A stretch of 36,096 bases of DNA from a virus. Where the stretch lies: IMG/VR virus record IMGVR_UViG_3300032304_000762, positions 1-36,096 of that record. One strand, 5' to 3'. Positions within the stretch are counted from its first letter, which is position 1. Each line of letters begins with the position of its first letter. Made by a program: the position numbers and the translations under genes. This document shows positions 16,358 through 31,661 of this stretch, one piece after another. The notes below the pieces were generated by a model, which was given only the letters and a program-made list of their open reading frames with translations, did no database searches and was not told where the DNA came from.

Positions 16358-16894
16358 TCACTTCAGTGTGAACTTGCTCTCTTCTTGCATCTTCAGCAGG
16401 CGCAAGGTCTGCGTCTTGGCATCGTCAAGCGCATGGTGTCCGGTGCCTACTCGCTCCACGCGGGTCTTCAGGAACATATTGGCAATCGTGCGGTAGCACC
16501 TGTCGTTCCAGTACTGCCAAGGCACGTCCATCTTCATGGCCCGGTACGCCGCAGCCACCAGCGTGTTGTCAAAGTTCGCTCCGTTACCCCACACCAGCAC
16601 GCTGTCCAGCGGAGGCATCCACATCGTCAGCTTGGTCAGGGCAGCGTTGAGGCTCATCTCACCCTTGAACGCAGCGGCGCGGGCTTCGGGGGATTGCTTT
16701 TCCCACCACTCTAACGTGCTCTTCTGCGCACGCAAACCCGCAGCTTTGCAGGTCTCTGGGTCGATGGTTACATAGAACTCCTCAGTGATGCCTTCTTCGG
16801 CTGTGAATTTCACAGCACCGATTGACAAGATCGTATCTCCAGGACGGGTACCCAGCGTCTCAATGTCTATCATGACGTTCTTCATTTGTGTCAT
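16358..16894 (-). CDS. DnaQ-like 3'-5' exonuclease
   Basis: 178 residues. MIDIETLGT near residues 8-14 gives the DxE metal-binding pair of the DEDD superfamily. ANFDNTLVAAAYR supplies the second acidic residue, and GHHALDDAKTQTL near 152-163 gives the His and final Asp (DEDDh type). The size and the layout with W-x-x-KQSPEARAAAF match the phage exodeoxyribonuclease VIII/RNase T-like group. The start follows AGGAGATAAAA; a second ATG three codons on is possible. Likely role: degrading DNA or processing ends during replication or recombination. Confidence 0.88.
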   Translation of the reverse strand: MTQMKNVMIDIETLGTRPGDTILSIGAVKFTAEEGITEEFYVTIDPETCKAAGLRAQKSTLEWWEKQSPEARAAAFKGEMSLNAALTKLTMWMPPLDSVLVWGNGANFDNTLVAAAYRAMKMDVPWQYWNDRCYRTIANMFLKTRVERVGTGHHALDDAKTQTLRLLKMQEESKFTLK

Positions 16895-17992: not shown

Positions 17993-18171
17993 TGCGATTC
18001 CTTGGTGTGCCGGATGGCGTTGTAGGCCAGCTTGGTTTCTGCCATCGCAGCCAACGCATGCTCAAGCGCAGCGTCGTAGTCATTATCCAGCATCGCTTGA
18101 TGCAGTTCCTTCAGTGCCTTCTCTGCCATCATGCAGGGGTAAGCGTAGTCAACAACCTCAACAGTCACCAT
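17989..18171 (-). CDS. Small hypothetical protein between polymerase and nuclease
   Basis: 60 residues from an ATG at 18171 that overlaps the end of the polymerase gene by 14 bases; its TGA overlaps the next ATG by 4 bases. The sequence is mostly helical (MAEKALKELHQAMLDNDYDAALEHALAAMAETKLAYNAI), like the short repeat-type helical proteins that accompany phage replication genes. A longer frame to 18306 exists but would lie within the polymerase gene. No function recognised. Confidence 0.65.
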   Translation of the reverse strand: MVTVEVVDYAYPCMMAEKALKELHQAMLDNDYDAALEHALAAMAETKLAYNAIRHTKESQ

Positions 18172-20032
18172 ACGTTTTTCCAATCCCACTTTCACAGTTG
18201 ATTGGGCAGCTTGCTGCCCACTTCGGAACCCAGCGCATACATTCTTCAACGTATGCCTGAGCTTGCTCAGCCTCTTCTTCCGGTGCGATGGCAGCCACCG
18301 CATCATGCACAGTCAGCACCACGTGCAGCTTCTTGGAGATCTTCAGTAGCTGCTGCATCACAACGATACGTGCCAGCGCCTGCACGACGTTCTCAACCAG
18401 CTTGCCCCCGTAGATGTCAACCAGCCCGGTCTCATCTTTGTACTGCCACGCTTCAAACGCCATGCCGTTCTTGTTCTTCACCGCACGGTGTAGCTGCGGG
18501 TAGCTGATGTACAGTCCGCTGGGTAGTTTAATGCCTTTGTTCCCCTCGACCAGTGCAACACCTTCACATCCGAACCACATGGACGTATTCTTGTGCATAG
18601 CTTCAATAGCGGTGTCCCCCGTCCTCCACAGCCTCGTGATGGCGGGCACAGAGTTACGGTATGTATCGATGATGTTCTTGCATTCGCTCAGTTCCAAATC
18701 CATGTTCATCTCGGACGCCTTCAGTGTGATCTGAAGTTTCACCGCCCCGGTCTGGTATCCGCAGCCCAGGACCACCGTCTTGCCTACGAACCGCTCTACC
18801 TTATCTGCCTTCGTTACCGGCCTACCAAAGATCTTACTCGCCATCTTGCAGTACACATCCACGCCATCGGTAAAGTCTTGCACGAGGTCATCCTGCCCCG
18901 CCAGCCACGCAAGCATCCGCGCCTCGATGTTGGACGAGTCGCAGTCGATGATCACATAGCCCGGAGGTGCCTCGATGCACTTCTTGAGCTTGTTGGCTTG
19001 CGCCCCACGGGCCGGTAGGTTCTGCAGGTTTATACCATCAGTGCCACCCAAGCGGTGCGTTCTCGCAGCAGAATATCTCAGAGGCACCGGGAACAGCGGG
19101 TTGCGCTGCGCCATGTCGATGAACCGCTTGGTGCGCGTCTCCTCCAGGGTGCTCTTGACCCCCATCCGGGCAGCCACCACAGCCTGCACTCGCTCGTCGG
19201 GGTGCTCTAACAGGGCCTTCATACCCGGGTCGGTCTTGGCAAAAGCGAACGCTTGCTTACCTGTCGTGGCACTGATCTTCATCGGCGGTGACACACCGAA
19301 CGACTCCAGCACCAAAGCGAACTTCGGGTTGGACATCAGGTCTTCCTTGGCGATGCCCGTATTGCTCAGCAGTTCTTCCTTGCGCCGCACCACATCGGCA
19401 AGGTGCTCCTCCAGCTTCTGCGCGTTCAAGCGCAGCGTGGGCTCGGTGTACATCCTGATGAGCCGGTCGATCAACTCCAGTTCCTTGCGGGGGTAGGGGT
19501 CTCGATGGTCGAACGTCTCGGGCTTGTACCACCCGTTGGACATCAGGAAGAACAGTTCATGGCATAGCTCCACGTCATGCAGGCAGTAGTCAGCGTAGTC
19601 TTTGAACTCCTGCTCGGTGAAGTCACAGCGACGTTTGCCCATCGCGTTCTGCACGGCTGTGCCCTTGTCCTCCAGACCGTACCGCTTGGCAAGCAGGGCC
19701 AGCGAGTTGCCCTTCATACCGAACATGGCACGTGCCATCGACAGGGTATCCAGCCACGCAGCGGGGTTGACCCCGAACCTCCAGGCCAGAATGGCGGCGT
19801 CGAAGAGAGTGTTGTGGCACAGCACTGCGTACTTACCCCACTCGATGCCGTCGAGTCGGTACTGCACCTCCTCGTGGGAGCCGGTGACGATCTCCTTGGT
19901 GCCATCCGGCCAGCGGGCTCCGAGCATAATGACTTCGAAGCGCGGGTCGCGGATGTAGTGCTCCATCGTCAGCTTGCTGAGACTGAAATCCTTGTCGTAA
20001 TAAGTCTCGAAATCAAGCGTCAGGATGTCCAT
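18158..20032 (-). CDS. DNA polymerase, family A (phage PolA-like)
   Basis: 624 residues. An N-terminal 3'-5' exonuclease begins with DFETYYD (Asp7, Glu9). The polymerase domain has RTHRLGGTDGINLQNLPARG, motif A DCDSSNIEARMLAWLAGQ near 360, motif B region KTVVLGCGYQTG near 415-428, and motif C HDAVAAI near 576. The length and lack of a 5' nuclease domain match phage family A replicases. Glu of motif A and Asp of HDA are present, so it looks active. It overlaps the VRR-NUC gene start-to-stop by 13 bases and the next small gene by 14 bases. This is the phage replicase. Confidence 0.93.
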   Translation of the reverse strand: MDILTLDFETYYDKDFSLSKLTMEHYIRDPRFEVIMLGARWPDGTKEIVTGSHEEVQYRLDGIEWGKYAVLCHNTLFDAAILAWRFGVNPAAWLDTLSMARAMFGMKGNSLALLAKRYGLEDKGTAVQNAMGKRRCDFTEQEFKDYADYCLHDVELCHELFFLMSNGWYKPETFDHRDPYPRKELELIDRLIRMYTEPTLRLNAQKLEEHLADVVRRKEELLSNTGIAKEDLMSNPKFALVLESFGVSPPMKISATTGKQAFAFAKTDPGMKALLEHPDERVQAVVAARMGVKSTLEETRTKRFIDMAQRNPLFPVPLRYSAARTHRLGGTDGINLQNLPARGAQANKLKKCIEAPPGYVIIDCDSSNIEARMLAWLAGQDDLVQDFTDGVDVYCKMASKIFGRPVTKADKVERFVGKTVVLGCGYQTGAVKLQITLKASEMNMDLELSECKNIIDTYRNSVPAITRLWRTGDTAIEAMHKNTSMWFGCEGVALVEGNKGIKLPSGLYISYPQLHRAVKNKNGMAFEAWQYKDETGLVDIYGGKLVENVVQALARIVVMQQLLKISKKLHVVLTVHDAVAAIAPEEEAEQAQAYVEECMRWVPKWAASCPINCESGIGKTYGDC

Positions 20033-24645: not shown

Positions 24646-24663
24646 AATTAAACGCGTTTAATT
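24646..24663. promoter_or_regulatory. Palindrome copy 1: AATTAAACGCGTTTAATT
   Basis: A perfect 18-bp palindrome that includes the TAA stop of the metallopeptidase/VWA gene and lies 46 bases before the 24599 start codon. The sequence AATTAAACG/CGTTTAATT recurs with minor change at seven other places. Candidate operator. Confidence 0.75.
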
Positions 24664-25909
24664 ACACAGGGACGTACAACGACACACCCGAAGGTGCTCT
24701 CATACCCTTGGTGCTGATAGCCCACAGCACCGGCCCCGGCCACTGCCCACCCCAGTCGGGCTCGACGTAGCCATCGGTGAACACGATAGTCGCCTCGGGC
24801 TTGATGTCTTCACGCTCCATGTACTCACGCATCGAAGTCACGCGAGTGCCCCCGCCACCCTTGGGCTTGGTCGTCTGCGCCAGTGTCTGCACAGCATCGC
24901 CCTCATACACCTCATGTGCTGCCACACGTGAATCCCAGTAGATCACGTCCACGATCTCAGGACGCACCGTCTCGCAGGCGCACATGATCTCGGTCAGCGC
25001 ACGCTGAAGCTGCACCTGACTGATGGACCCTGACGTATCCACGCCGATGGTCACACGCTTGACTGCCTCGGTGTAACGCGAGGGCATGTAGGTGTCCTGA
25101 GCCAGCCACCGCCTCGACGGCTTGCGCCACGTGGACAGATCGTTACCCGCTGCCGTGGTACGCAGCCACTCACGCAACTGCTCAGCCCAGTCAACCTTCG
25201 GCTCCAACAGGTCACCGAACGCACGGTGTACATCGGCACCGATCTTGCCAGCGATGAGCGCACCCTGACGCAGGGCACTGTCCACAGTACGCTTCACCTC
25301 CTCGGCTTCAGCAGGCGTCAGCGGCTGCATACCCTCACCATCACCCTTGGCATCGGGCTTGGCAGGCTCGTGCTTGTCGAACTGCTGTGCCTCCTTGCCG
25401 TTGGCAGCCTTGGGCTTGTCACTGCTCTTGCCGTTGCCACTGCCGCTACCGTCCTGCGGCTTGCCGTTCTGTTTCTTCTTCATGGCACGGTAGATCTCAC
25501 CCGTGTCCATGCCCCGGTACTGCTGATCGAGCACAGCGTTGTCCCAGACCGTGAGGAAGTCCCCGTTCGGGTCGAGATCATCCAGCATCAGGTTGATCAC
25601 TGCGTCCGCTGCGAAGTTGGCAGTCTGCGGGTCCTCCTCGAACATCTTCTGCCAAACAGTCATGTGCATGAGCATCACATGGAAGTACTCGTGCAGCACC
25701 ACGAAGCGGGTCAGCTTGTCGTCAGCGTCGTTGATGAACGCACGGCCATACACCACGTCCCGGCCATTGGTCCCGGCAGTTGGCACGTCATCACGTACCT
25801 CCCAGGTGCCGACCATGAGCACACCGCTCATAGCCATGAAACGCGGATCACGCATGATGGCAGTGCGTGCCTTGGTGATCTTGTCCTCTGCGGATAGAGT
25901 CATCATCAT
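24662..25909 (-). CDS. Putative metallopeptidase fused to VWA-like domain
   Basis: 415 residues. HEYFH at 73-77 is a zinc-binding HExxH motif, and NFAADAVINLMLDDL follows, the layout of the DUF2201 N-terminal metallopeptidase-like domain. A Gly/Ser/Lys linker spans about 150-195. The C-terminal half is von Willebrand A-like, with the MIDAS motif DTSGSIS at 291-297 and FTDGYVEPDWGG. Three ATG codons stand in a row; 25903 has the best distance from GAGGTGA. It follows the MoxR-type ATPase after one base. MoxR ATPases typically act on VWA partners, as CobS does with CobT, so these two likely form one complex. Target unknown. Confidence 0.87.
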   Translation of the reverse strand: MMMTLSAEDKITKARTAIMRDPRFMAMSGVLMVGTWEVRDDVPTAGTNGRDVVYGRAFINDADDKLTRFVVLHEYFHVMLMHMTVWQKMFEEDPQTANFAADAVINLMLDDLDPNGDFLTVWDNAVLDQQYRGMDTGEIYRAMKKKQNGKPQDGSGSGNGKSSDKPKAANGKEAQQFDKHEPAKPDAKGDGEGMQPLTPAEAEEVKRTVDSALRQGALIAGKIGADVHRAFGDLLEPKVDWAEQLREWLRTTAAGNDLSTWRKPSRRWLAQDTYMPSRYTEAVKRVTIGVDTSGSISQVQLQRALTEIMCACETVRPEIVDVIYWDSRVAAHEVYEGDAVQTLAQTTKPKGGGGTRVTSMREYMEREDIKPEATIVFTDGYVEPDWGGQWPGPVLWAISTKGMRAPSGVSLYVPV

Positions 25910-25910
25910 C

Positions 25911-26963
25911 TCACCTCAAGATCCAAGAGTTAGTAACACACCACCGCGTAAATTCACGGTTCAGCGCAGTCCACGCTGACTTGTGCTTCTGGCGCAGCAG
26001 GTTGGTAGCGAACACAGCCTGCAACTCCTTGGGCAAGCGCTGCATGTAGGTCAGCACGTTGTCGAGCGTGTCCTTCTCGACCCGGTGCACGGCGCGGTGC
26101 ACAGTCATCATGTTGGTCGTCGGCGTGGCAGGCAGCTTGGCCTTGTCAGGCGCACCGATGATGGAGCCCCACGAGGGCAGCCCATCTGCCAACTCTACGT
26201 AGGCCATCAGGTCCAGCGCCGCACGGGCACCCAGTGCACCGGCCAGGGCACAGCGCATCACCTCGTCGTCACCCACCGCATCGCGGTCGTTCAGCATGCG
26301 GCCAGCCGCAGCCAGGGAGCGAGGGGTCACGAACGCTTTGCGCTGCTCACCCCTGTGGTGGATGTACGGGTTCTCGGCAGGGGTCTGCACCGTGTCCTCC
26401 TCAGCCAGCACCTGCGGCGTGTCGGTTACCCATGCCAGCACAGCGTGGTGCACACCGTTGGCTACACCCCACTCGACCCATTCAGGGGCGGTCGGCTTAC
26501 GCATCGTGAGCACAGACATACGGTTGCGGACGTGCATCTGCATCGCATCACCCACGCCCTCGGATGAGAGGTTCGTAGTGCCGAAGACGATCGACCCCTG
26601 CGGCAGCGGCCTGTGTCCGACACGCCGATCGAGCAGCACAGGCAGAAGAGCGTTCTGCACAGAGCGGGACGCCTTACCGAATTCGTCAAGGCAGATGATG
26701 CGTGCTTCATCGCTCTGCGTACCAAAGACTTCGTTCGGATAAAAAGTGCTAGTGTGGTTGTTGTGGTCCACGGCAGGGATCTGGATGTCACCCACGTCGA
26801 TCTGCGTGCAGTCGATGTACACGGGGCGATGATCTGGGAAACGCTCCGCCAGCATGTGCAGGATGCTGGACTTGCCTGTACCCGAGGGACCCTCGATCAG
26901 GACGGTGGTGTGCGTGGCAAGGTTAGCCACGGCGTTGGCGCATTGATTGATGCTGAGTTTCAT
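25911..26963 (-). CDS. MoxR/CobS-type AAA+ ATPase
   Basis: 350 residues from ATG 26963, which follows GGAGGTAGAT; an in-frame TTG at 26975 lies inside the palindrome and is not credible. Walker A GPSGTGKSS is near 25-33, Walker B ICLDEFGK near 88, sensor 1 FGTTN near 126, and an arginine-finger-like RNRM follows. C-terminal HHRGEQRKAFVTPRSLAAAG fits the lid of MoxR-like proteins. Such ATPases remodel or insert cofactors into partner proteins through VWA adaptors. The palindrome directly abuts its ribosome-binding site, so expression may be controlled there. Phage role unknown. Confidence 0.9.
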   Translation of the reverse strand: MKLSINQCANAVANLATHTTVLIEGPSGTGKSSILHMLAERFPDHRPVYIDCTQIDVGDIQIPAVDHNNHTSTFYPNEVFGTQSDEARIICLDEFGKASRSVQNALLPVLLDRRVGHRPLPQGSIVFGTTNLSSEGVGDAMQMHVRNRMSVLTMRKPTAPEWVEWGVANGVHHAVLAWVTDTPQVLAEEDTVQTPAENPYIHHRGEQRKAFVTPRSLAAAGRMLNDRDAVGDDEVMRCALAGALGARAALDLMAYVELADGLPSWGSIIGAPDKAKLPATPTTNMMTVHRAVHRVEKDTLDNVLTYMQRLPKELQAVFATNLLRQKHKSAWTALNREFTRWCVTNSWILR

Positions 26964-26973
26964 ATCTACCTCC

Positions 26974-26991
26974 AATTAAACCGGTTTAATT
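26974..26991. promoter_or_regulatory. Palindrome copy 2: AATTAAACCGGTTTAATT
   Basis: A perfect 18-bp palindrome whose centre is CCGG where most copies have CGCG. The change is symmetric, so dyad symmetry is kept. It lies 2 bases after the stop of the DUF3150-like gene and touches the GGAGG of the MoxR gene. Confidence 0.75.
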
Positions 26992-26993
26992 AC

Positions 26994-27926
26994 TCACAAA
27001 CTGAACTCTGACAGGATGTTATCCATCGCTGCACGGGTTGCCTTCTGCAACTCAGGGGACTCTTTAAGGCTGTCCATATCGACACGGGACAGGGCAGTCT
27101 CCAGCGCCTGTCGTGCCTGCTCCAGCTTCGGATCGCCTGTCACATTCAGTGACGTGAGCAGAGTGCACAGTTCAAGGCCCTGCTCCAGCATGCTGTCGTA
27201 CAGCTTCGGGCGGCGCTTCTTCTTGATCTCAACCGACTTGAGCGAACCGTCCTCGGCAAAGGTCTTCACCTCCTCCACTTGGTCGGGGTCATGCTCAAGC
27301 ACGGCAGCCATTCGGTCACGCACCCATTCGACCTGCGTCTTCACGCGGTCCCACGCATCGGCCACGGCCCCCGACACTCGGACCGCGACGGCCTTGTCAT
27401 ACTGATCCTTCAGGTCAGCAGCGGCTGCAGCACCGATATCCACGCGGAAGTCCCCCGACTCAGGCACCGGCTCGATGGCGAACGAGAAGCGGAACTTGGC
27501 AGATACCTCCGACTCGGGCGGGTACTCGGCACGGTCGAACAGCGCACCCATCTCGAAAGCCTGCTTGCTGATTTCCGTGGAATACGTCCGCAGGAAGACG
27601 TGGATCAGGTCGTTGAACCGCTGCTCGTACTTGGCAGCCTGACCCATGACGTTGAGGTACTGGGCGGTGGTGATGAGCCTGCGTCCGTTGTCATCCCAGG
27701 GCAGCGTCTGGGTGTTGAACCACTGGCGCACCTCGCCACGCAGGGACTTGATGGCCTCAAGGGCAGGGCACTCACTGAACAAGTGCTTGTGCACCGTAGC
27801 AGCACGCTTGCTGCGGGCACCCTTGGCCTGCGTCACCTCGTCGGCAGTCTTCTTGTCCTGCTTCCGTGCTTCCCACACGGAGATGTTGATGCTGCCAAGC
27901 ATGGCAGCGGTAGCGATTGAGATCAT
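26994..27926 (-). CDS. DUF3150-like phage protein linked to MoxR/VWA genes
   Basis: 310 residues behind TAAGGAG. INISVWEARKQDKKTADEVT near 13-32, then HKHLFSECPALEAIKSLRGE, TLPWDDNGRRLITTAQYLNV and KFRFSFAIEPVPESGDFRVD. This order matches a family I recall as DUF3150, seen beside MoxR ATPase and VWA genes. The remainder is helical and charged, ending in a long helix bundle. It carries no enzyme motif, so a structural or adaptor role within the three-gene set is likely but unproven. A hairpin (GCCCC/GGGGC with loop CGAA, 27939-27952) and palindrome copy 3 lie in its leader. Confidence 0.75.
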   Translation of the reverse strand: MISIATAAMLGSINISVWEARKQDKKTADEVTQAKGARSKRAATVHKHLFSECPALEAIKSLRGEVRQWFNTQTLPWDDNGRRLITTAQYLNVMGQAAKYEQRFNDLIHVFLRTYSTEISKQAFEMGALFDRAEYPPESEVSAKFRFSFAIEPVPESGDFRVDIGAAAAADLKDQYDKAVAVRVSGAVADAWDRVKTQVEWVRDRMAAVLEHDPDQVEEVKTFAEDGSLKSVEIKKKRRPKLYDSMLEQGLELCTLLTSLNVTGDPKLEQARQALETALSRVDMDSLKESPELQKATRAAMDNILSEFSL

Positions 27927-28000: not shown

Positions 28001-28016
28001 ATTAAACACGTTTAAT
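28001..28016. promoter_or_regulatory. Palindrome copy 3: ATTAAACACGTTTAAT (one central mismatch)
   Basis: The same 16-bp palindrome with CACG instead of CGCG at the centre, the only imperfect copy among those close to the main form. It contains the TAA stop of the 28012-28245 gene and lies in the leader of the DUF3150-like gene. Confidence 0.7.
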
Positions 28017-28982: not shown

Positions 28983-28993
28983 AGCACCTCCGA

Positions 28994-29007
28994 TTAAACG
29001 CGTTTAA
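28994..29007. promoter_or_regulatory. Palindrome copy 4: TTAAACGCGTTTAA
   Basis: A perfect 14-bp palindrome; the outer pair is lost on one side because the upstream codon is CTC. It contains the TAA of the 29004-29294 gene and stands 3 bases before GGAGG of the 28982 gene. Confidence 0.75.
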
Positions 29008-29294
29008 GAGTAGTACCGACCGACGATGACGGTGTCGTCATCGCACAACTTGAACAGCACACCGCTGAAGAAACTATCTGACACGATGCCGTGCCAGCCA
29101 GCAAACTGGCTGAAGCCAAGCTCGCGGGTGATGTTCTGACTGTCTGCCACGTCGTACCACCAGCCCTTGTACTGGACGAAGCGCGGGCTGTAGTGGTCAG
29201 CCAGCAGGACGTAATCAAAGTCAGCCTGCACCTTGGCAGGCAGGTCCTCGAAGCACGCCATCGGGCGTGGGCGGTTGTTCGTGATGATGTTCAT
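29004..29294 (-). CDS. Hypothetical phage protein
   Basis: 96 residues from ATG 29294. MNIITNNRPRPMACFEDLPA then YVLLADHYSPRFVQYKGWWY DVAD and GFSQFAGWHGIVSDSFFSGV LF, an aromatic and probably globular protein. Its leader ACCGGAGAGCAACATGAACA is nearly identical to that of the gene just upstream, implying a small duplication. It overlaps that gene by 4 bases. No family recognised. Confidence 0.72.
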   Translation of the reverse strand: MNIITNNRPRPMACFEDLPAKVQADFDYVLLADHYSPRFVQYKGWWYDVADSQNITRELGFSQFAGWHGIVSDSFFSGVLFKLCDDDTVIVGRYYS

Positions 29295-30018: not shown

Positions 30019-30034
30019 ATTAAACGCGTTTAAT
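30019..30034. promoter_or_regulatory. Palindrome copy 5: ATTAAACGCGTTTAAT
   Basis: A perfect 16-bp palindrome located 38-53 bases downstream of the predicted transcription start of the 30079-30107 promoter and 3 bases before the 9-bp hairpin. The placement would suit a roadblock-type operator. Confidence 0.75.
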
Positions 30035-30078: not shown

Positions 30079-30107
30079 ATTGTAGAGCAATGTGTTCTTT
30101 ATGTCAA
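30079..30107 (-). promoter_or_regulatory. Strong sigma70-type promoter for the 29518 leftward operon
   Basis: On the minus strand a perfect TTGACA (30107-30102), 17-base spacer, and TACAAT (30084-30079, 5/6). It is the best consensus promoter in the window. It lies 9 bases beyond the stop of the 348-residue gene and feeds the structured leader. The untranslated leader to the 29518 ATG is about 550 bases, very long for a phage. Confidence 0.75.
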
Positions 30108-31582: not shown

Positions 31583-31598
31583 ATTAAACGCGTTTAAT
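31583..31598. promoter_or_regulatory. Palindrome copy 6: ATTAAACGCGTTTAAT
   Basis: A perfect 16-bp palindrome. It covers the predicted transcription start (about 31596) of the promoter candidate at 31603-31631, a classic place for a repressor site. Confidence 0.78.
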
Positions 31599-31602
31599 TC
31601 AT

Positions 31603-31631
31603 TGCCTATCACATGCGCGTAATTATGTCAA
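31603..31631 (-). promoter_or_regulatory. Promoter candidate bracketed by two palindromes
   Basis: On the minus strand a perfect TTGACA (31631-31626) is followed after 17 bases by TAGGCA (31608-31603, only 2/6). A poor -10 means either a weak or an activated promoter, or a chance -35. Palindrome copies 7 and 6 lie 14 bases upstream and 4 bases downstream. It would drive the 348-residue gene through a leader of about 430 bases. Confidence 0.4.
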
Positions 31632-31645
31632 GCCTTCTTGCATCG

Positions 31646-31661
31646 ATTAAACGCGTTTAAT
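31646..31661. promoter_or_regulatory. Palindrome copy 7: ATTAAACGCGTTTAAT
   Basis: Identical to copy 6, centre to centre 63 bases away, close to six helical turns, so both face the same side of the DNA. It lies just upstream of the -35 of the 31603-31631 promoter candidate. The pair could bind one oligomer with looping. Confidence 0.78.

Follow-up and report, generated by a model that had tools for sequence, protein, structure and literature searches.

We analysed the IMG/VR virus record IMGVR_UViG_3300032304_000762 over its entire length of 36,096 bp (the window), which is probably a fragment because its relatives reach about 55-67 kb. On its minus strand, at 24662-27926, three adjacent open reading frames (ORFs) are transcribed in the order DUF3150-like gene, MoxR gene, metallopeptidase-VWA gene (D-M-V; D, M and V denote these genes below). 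The identities of the three genes, their conserved catalytic motifs, their co-conservation, their placement with replication genes and their occurrence on plasmids are established here. These data are consistent with a model, to which we give a probability of about one half, in which the trio is an early MoxR-VWA ternary machine of mobile elements that serves the DNA phase inside the cell rather than the building of virions. The MoxR/VWA pair is already known; what we add is DUF3150 as a third partner and the presence of the trio on plasmids.

Pfam, PHROG, ortholog and profile matches bear out the gene identities given in the initial annotation, which had named a MoxR ATPase, a metallopeptidase/VWA protein and a 'DUF3150-like' protein. 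V matches DUF2201_N (PF13203; 2.5e-29, 103.2 bits against a curated cut-off of 23.2) and the DUF2201 VWA domain (PF09967; 2.4e-14, 54 bits against a curated cut-off of 26.4). The HExxH motif and the metal ion-dependent adhesion site (MIDAS), which had been described as intact, are indeed present and are conserved across phages and plasmids, N4 gp25 and the jumbo phages among them. Residue conservation was counted over 33 phage VWA sequences (Table 1), and N98 and D102 are likewise invariant in 33/33. For the AlphaFold model of V (predicted local distance difference test, pLDDT, 80), the nearest PDB entries are VWA domains, including the midasin (MDN1) MIDAS domain and NorD. We also observed that phrog_1314 and several RefSeq records (N4 gp25, phage G gp576, Ab09 ORF32 and others) are labelled 'HNH endonuclease'. 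Because N4 gp25 (L025:3165-4307) is by Pfam a metallopeptidase-VWA protein (DUF2201_N 3e-87, DUF2201 1e-46), this label is put in question for phrog_1314 and RefSeq N4 gp25, and looks like an annotation error that has spread.

M matches AAA_5 in Pfam (4.8e-12) and the ATPase family phrog_1297 (2e-53), while its match to bpMoxR stays below the cut-off (20.7 vs 27 bits). In an alignment of 21 MoxR sequences, drawn from plasmids and from phages that included N4-like and jumbo ones, G28, G30, K31, D93, the sensor-1 asparagine N131 and the finger/sensor arginines R148 and R215 were invariant in 21/21. Searching the PDB with a MoxR profile returned midasin AAA domains as the best matches (5e-45), with CbbQ lower down. 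The listed M ORF opens at a TTG within a palindrome; the true start is likely the ATG at 26963, which is preceded by GGAGGT. V starts one base past the stop codon of M, and its ribosome-binding site lies inside M, which suggests that the two genes are translationally coupled.

The window D protein has no significant Pfam or PHROG match of its own, and no PF11348 match is listed for it. Its ortholog in the related locus L009, at 69% identity, exceeds the Pfam cut-off for DUF3150 (PF11348; 26.5 vs 24.9 bits). By hhalign, the phage D profile aligns with plasmid DUF3150 proteins at E 2.9e-9 over 202 columns, and the AlphaFold model (pLDDT 90; helical with some strands) resembles phage models only in BFVD, one of which is named DUF3150 (TM-score 0.80). 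Thus, by way of a close ortholog, the profile comparison and the BFVD model, we assign the window D protein to DUF3150. Foldseek matched no solved structure in the PDB to the D model at E 0.001. The D profile gave weak matches to apolipoprotein-type helical sequences in the PDB (best 0.0045), which we judged compositional. Some relatives have small ORFs with long GDGYGNG-type repeats between D and M, once in L013 (5334-5585) and twice in L015 (4229-4450 and 4715-4987).

A joint role for the three genes, which the initial annotation held to be refuted should they not be co-conserved in related phages, survives that comparison. Close relatives all carry the three genes, in the order seen here, wherever their sequence is long enough to include them. 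By alignment search, at least 571 IMG/VR stretches encode a DUF3150-like protein; among the best 80 of these, 66 loci have all three genes, always on the same strand, in the orders D-M-V (30), M-V-D (35) and M-D-V (1), and the remaining 14 appear to be interrupted by contig ends. Hidden Markov models (HMMs) detected D, M and V in every locus of at least 10 kb. As a control for shared ancestry, we clustered the ORFs of 28 dereplicated phage loci: V and D each occurred in 28 and M in 27 (in all 28 by HMM), with the next neighbour family in 13. The trio is also carried by cyanophage Pag-Yong1, and, at the DNA level, the trio matched none of the phages searched. The best tree of VWA proteins contains five changes of gene order, of which strongly supported branches require only one; repeated shuffling is suggested, not proven. 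On the same tree, the trio members from uncultivated phages form one clade, and the label 'has DUF3150' needs three changes overall. Since this label changes on the tree and DUF3150 is not detected in the whole genomes checked (see below), gain or loss of the third part has occurred.

Homologous trios are also found on plasmids. The operon is present on plasmids of Burkholderia, Paraburkholderia, Cupriavidus and Rhodovastum and, with small genes interposed, on a Simplicispira plasmid, and these plasmid proteins are 22-32% identical to those of the window. All three proteins of the Burkholderiales plasmid operon are homologous to the window proteins over most of their length, but the gene order is M-D-V and the operon adjoins PRTRC and type IV secretion system (T4SS) genes. 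Our survey of genome contigs, which was queried with a single plasmid protein and is hence biased to Burkholderiales, recovered M-D-V in 44 of 46 loci, with one locus cut and one, from Desulfobacter, showing D without detected partners. Each of eight Burkholderiales genomes has exactly one DUF2201 VWA gene. In the Desulfobacter latus locus (L160:7001-7876), the DUF3150-like gene is at 26% identity, and neither MoxR nor VWA is detectable in that locus. On two Burkholderiales plasmids (L029 and L030) the trio ends just ahead of virB11/trbC/virB3/virB4-type genes, and on the former the distance to PRTRC genes, a ThiF family protein among them, is about 5 kb. As the MIDAS of midasin binds ubiquitin-like domains, a link between the trio and the PRTRC/ThiF genes is conceivable.

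A more distant trio is found on IncC and related conjugative plasmids, where an AAA protein (AAA_5 and CbbQ_C) accompanies DUF3150 and a CobT-like VWA protein with HExxH and MIDAS. Its DUF3150 is homologous to that of the phages (E 2.9e-9, as above) and its VWA protein bears both motifs, but it has other AAA lid and VWA families and longer proteins, and in IncC and pAQU1 it is interleaved with bet/exo (and ssb). Of the five plasmids read, bet or recT plus a lambda exonuclease gene lie near the cluster in four, namely pECO17386 (IncC; also ssb), pAQU1, pLM6 and pT82A, the record of which ends before any VWA gene could appear; on the fifth, from P. veronii, the cluster has no bet/exo neighbour. 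Overall, 1119 plasmid records contain DUF3150, and 968 of these are conjugative.

In all 16 related phage records, once circular permutation is taken into account in three of them, V lies upstream of, and co-oriented with, the DNA polymerase gene, and the terminase is on the opposite strand, on the upstream side, in all 15 records where it was found. The pair of N4 (gp24/gp25) and that of the Rhizobium phage also stand ahead of helicase/polymerase. A sigma-70-type promoter points toward the trio (Table 1), and promoter-scan sites overall are no commoner in the window than in shuffled sequence. The trio is probably expressed early.

What such a set does for a phage had been called not established. 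This holds for N4 gp24/gp25, core genes of N4-like phages of unknown function (PMC4193335; PMC7650795) that are not covered in the CRISPRi-ART phage fitness paper. The pair is less unexplored than this suggests, however: it is known in N4-like phages (PMC4193335), and for group 2.2 jumbo phages a metallopeptidase-vWA/MoxR pair has been proposed to act as virion-assembly chaperone and protease (PMC7824862). Like the window genes, N4 gp24/gp25 (Schitoviridae core) form an adjacent, co-oriented pair of the phrog_1297/1314 type, with HExxH and MIDAS, upstream of helicase and DNA polymerase, but identity is only about 20-26% and the N4 genome has no detectable DUF3150. Both proteins of the jumbo-phage pair share the domain architecture of the window proteins; they differ in the virion role proposed for them and in that PA5oct and G, which were checked, have no detectable DUF3150. 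The MoxR-vWA ternary conflict systems likewise add a third conserved component to an AAA+/VWA core, there VMAP, iSTAND, FtsH or a beta-propeller (PMC7159879). The third protein of the window has no Pfam match to any of these four. Midasin, CbbQO, NorQD and RavA-ViaA each pair a MoxR-clade AAA+ protein with a MIDAS VWA partner, as the window does, and act on ribosome precursors, rubisco, nitric oxide reductase and respiratory enzymes; to our knowledge, they lack a fused HExxH domain of the DUF2201_N family. In the literature searched, which omits most subscription journals, DUF3150 is named in no paper, and we found no description of the ternary set or of its distribution across phages and conjugative plasmids.

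We favour a DNA-processing role because of the plasmid trios, the place among early replication genes and the distant version beside single-strand annealing recombinases. In such a machine, the MoxR AAA+ ring would hydrolyse ATP; the VWA protein, carrying the zinc-peptidase domain, would dock clients or the ring via its MIDAS; and the DUF3150 protein would join them as a third subunit, for recognition or scaffolding of the client. Together they would remodel or cleave proteins while the element replicates, recombines or becomes established in the cell. We infer that the three proteins form a complex and that the clients are proteins in the DNA phase of the element, and the VWA peptidase is predicted to be active. 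It is possible, if improbable, that the trio is the prokaryotic mobile-element counterpart of eukaryotic p97/Cdc48-SPRTN/Wss1, in which an AAA+ unfoldase, coupled to a zinc protease and dedicated adaptor, would strip or cut DNA-bound proteins (roadblocks, crosslinked or covalently attached proteins) in replication, recombination or cell entry, for phages and conjugative plasmids.

Several observations weigh against a ternary machine of the DNA phase. The interaction of the trio proteins and their ATPase and protease activities are predictions from sequence. The neighbourhood of replication genes is indirect evidence, as early phage operons mix functions, and the Burkholderiales plasmid trios neighbour T4SS and PRTRC genes, not recombinases. 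The distant plasmid VWA protein aligns with that of the phages in the N-terminal catalytic region only, and weakly (E 7.8e-4, probability 25%). Finally, the third part is not universal to MoxR/VWA pairs: DUF3150 was detectable in 0 of six whole genomes (N4, Ab09, VBP47, phage G, PA5oct and RHph_TM), though N4-like and jumbo phages have the pair.

Other explanations have to account for the same distribution. If the set served virion assembly, the AAA+ ring and VWA cochaperone would fold structural proteins and cleave them as a maturation protease. This is the published proposal for the jumbo-phage pair (PMC7824862); there is a precedent in tail development for p618/p892 of Acidianus two-tailed virus (ATV), cited in PMC7824862 and PMC9964418, and the record of the PA5oct ATPase carries the label ESI-MS/MS (electrospray ionization tandem mass spectrometry), this protein being possibly virion-associated. 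We nevertheless consider virion assembly rather unlikely, as the homologous plasmid trios belong to replicons that make no virion, V keeps with replication genes in all 16 relatives, on the strand opposite to terminase, and N4 gp24/gp25 are among replication genes too. A serious rival, if on balance an unlikely one, is that the AAA+/protease set inactivates proteins of host defence or transcription soon after reaching a new cell. The early operon position and host-type promoter fit this, as do the sharing of the set by phages and conjugative plasmids, both of which enter new cells, and the existence of MoxR-vWA ternary sets with a third component in conflict systems (PMC7159879). However, the neighbours are replication/recombination genes, near-universal retention in N4-like phages resembles housekeeping, and a PADLOC and NCBIfam search returned no defence or named family but generic AAA matches only, those to PADLOC being weak and mostly limited to the AAA region (mad8 3.7e-6).

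That three independent genes stay together through common descent alone, with no joint function, is very improbable. Among close relatives adjacency is uninformative because gene order is inherited, but over the 28 diverged loci only M and V stay with D while other neighbours turn over; order shifts among relatives without loss; and the set recurs in unrelated replicons. A metal-chelatase-like or cofactor-insertion complex of the CobS/CobT kind, one of the roles raised in the initial annotation, is unsupported and scarcely credible. The plasmid relatives do match CobT/CobT_C and CbbQ_C models, but such matches are a family-level likeness common to many MoxR-VWA systems with other clients, and neither the window proteins searched nor the annotated plasmid neighbourhoods, to which no dedicated CobN search was applied, showed a CobN-like subunit.

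The occurrence of the pair and its third partner on plasmids argues that their function is not specific to virus particles. What N4 gp24/gp25 do can thereby be asked in tractable systems, with phage N4 on E. coli K-12 and with conjugative plasmids in laboratory strains. DUF3150 itself, encoded on more than 1,100 plasmids, most of them conjugative, and in hundreds of contigs from uncultivated phages, becomes a likely partner in a MoxR-VWA system.

Table 1. Coordinates of the trio, its motifs, and the palindromes and promoters of the early region (window positions).
Feature	Position	Strand	Basis or remark
Palindrome ATTAAACGCGTTTAAT at V stop codon	24647..24662		
V, metallopeptidase (DUF2201_N) - VWA (DUF2201), 415 aa	24662..25909	-	Pfam, phrog_1314
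MIDAS aspartate D379 (TDG)	24773..24775	-	invariant
MIDAS threonine T355 (GGGGT)	24845..24847	-	at least 90% conserved
MIDAS motif 1, DTSGS	25025..25039	-	D291, S293, S295 invariant
Putative zinc site HEYFHVMLMH (HExxHxxxxH)	25664..25693	-	H73, E74, H77 invariant; H82 at least 90%
M, MoxR-type AAA+ ATPase, 350 aa	25911..26963	-	AAA_5, phrog_1297
Walker B acidic pair DE	26682..26687	-	D93 invariant in 21 sequences
Walker A, GPSGTGKS	26868..26891	-	G28, G30, K31 invariant in 21 sequences
Palindrome ATTAAACCGGTTTAAT immediately 5' of M ribosome-binding site	26975..26990		
D, DUF3150-like third component, 310 aa	26994..27926	-	ortholog L009, hhalign, AlphaFold, BFVD
Palindrome upstream of D	28001..28016		corresponding palindromes in L004, L036
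Palindrome with one mismatch, ahead of another early gene	28993..29008		
Palindrome about 45 bp downstream of early promoter -10	30019..30034		
Early sigma-70-type promoter toward trio, TTGACA-17-TACAAT	30079..30107	-	11/12 matches; counterparts in L004, L036
Palindrome, promoter-proximal copy	31583..31598		
Possible second promoter with TTGACA and a poor -10, flanked by two palindromes	31603..31631	-	direct reading
Palindrome, upstream copy	31646..31661		63 bp from the 31583..31598 copy

The palindromes at the borders of the trio, from which dedicated control of these genes had been proposed, are real, as ATTAAACNNGTTTAAT occurs in seven copies in the window (one mismatched) against 0.02 expected. 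Dedicated control does not follow: the seven copies, all between 24647 and 31661, are not confined to the trio and are a feature of the whole early region, its promoters included. In the related loci L004 and L007-L010 the palindrome is GTTAAACNNGTTTAAC, in which the two outer bases have changed as a pair; in L036, GTTATCCNNNGGATAAC follows the corresponding promoter and also stands directly ahead of the DUF3150-like gene. The lineage-specific forms (ATTAAAC..GTTTAAT, GTTAAAC..GTTTAAC and GTTATCC...GGATAAC) occupy the same positions, past early promoters as well as at the borders of genes. Because position is conserved while sequence is exchanged among relatives, as expected of operators, we regard the palindromes as candidate operators of differing repressors. 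Palindromes at gene ends recall the stoperators of mycobacteriophages. No DNA-binding regulator for them was found among ten early and other small ORFs. A TTGACA likewise lies between paired palindromes in L004.

Outside the trio, the window encodes a DNA polymerase of 624 aa (18158-20032) and has a separate small exonuclease gene, phrog_255 (16358-16894). In the relatives G008, G012 and G015, the polymerase match covers two separate parts of a single longer frame, suggestive of an intervening insert.

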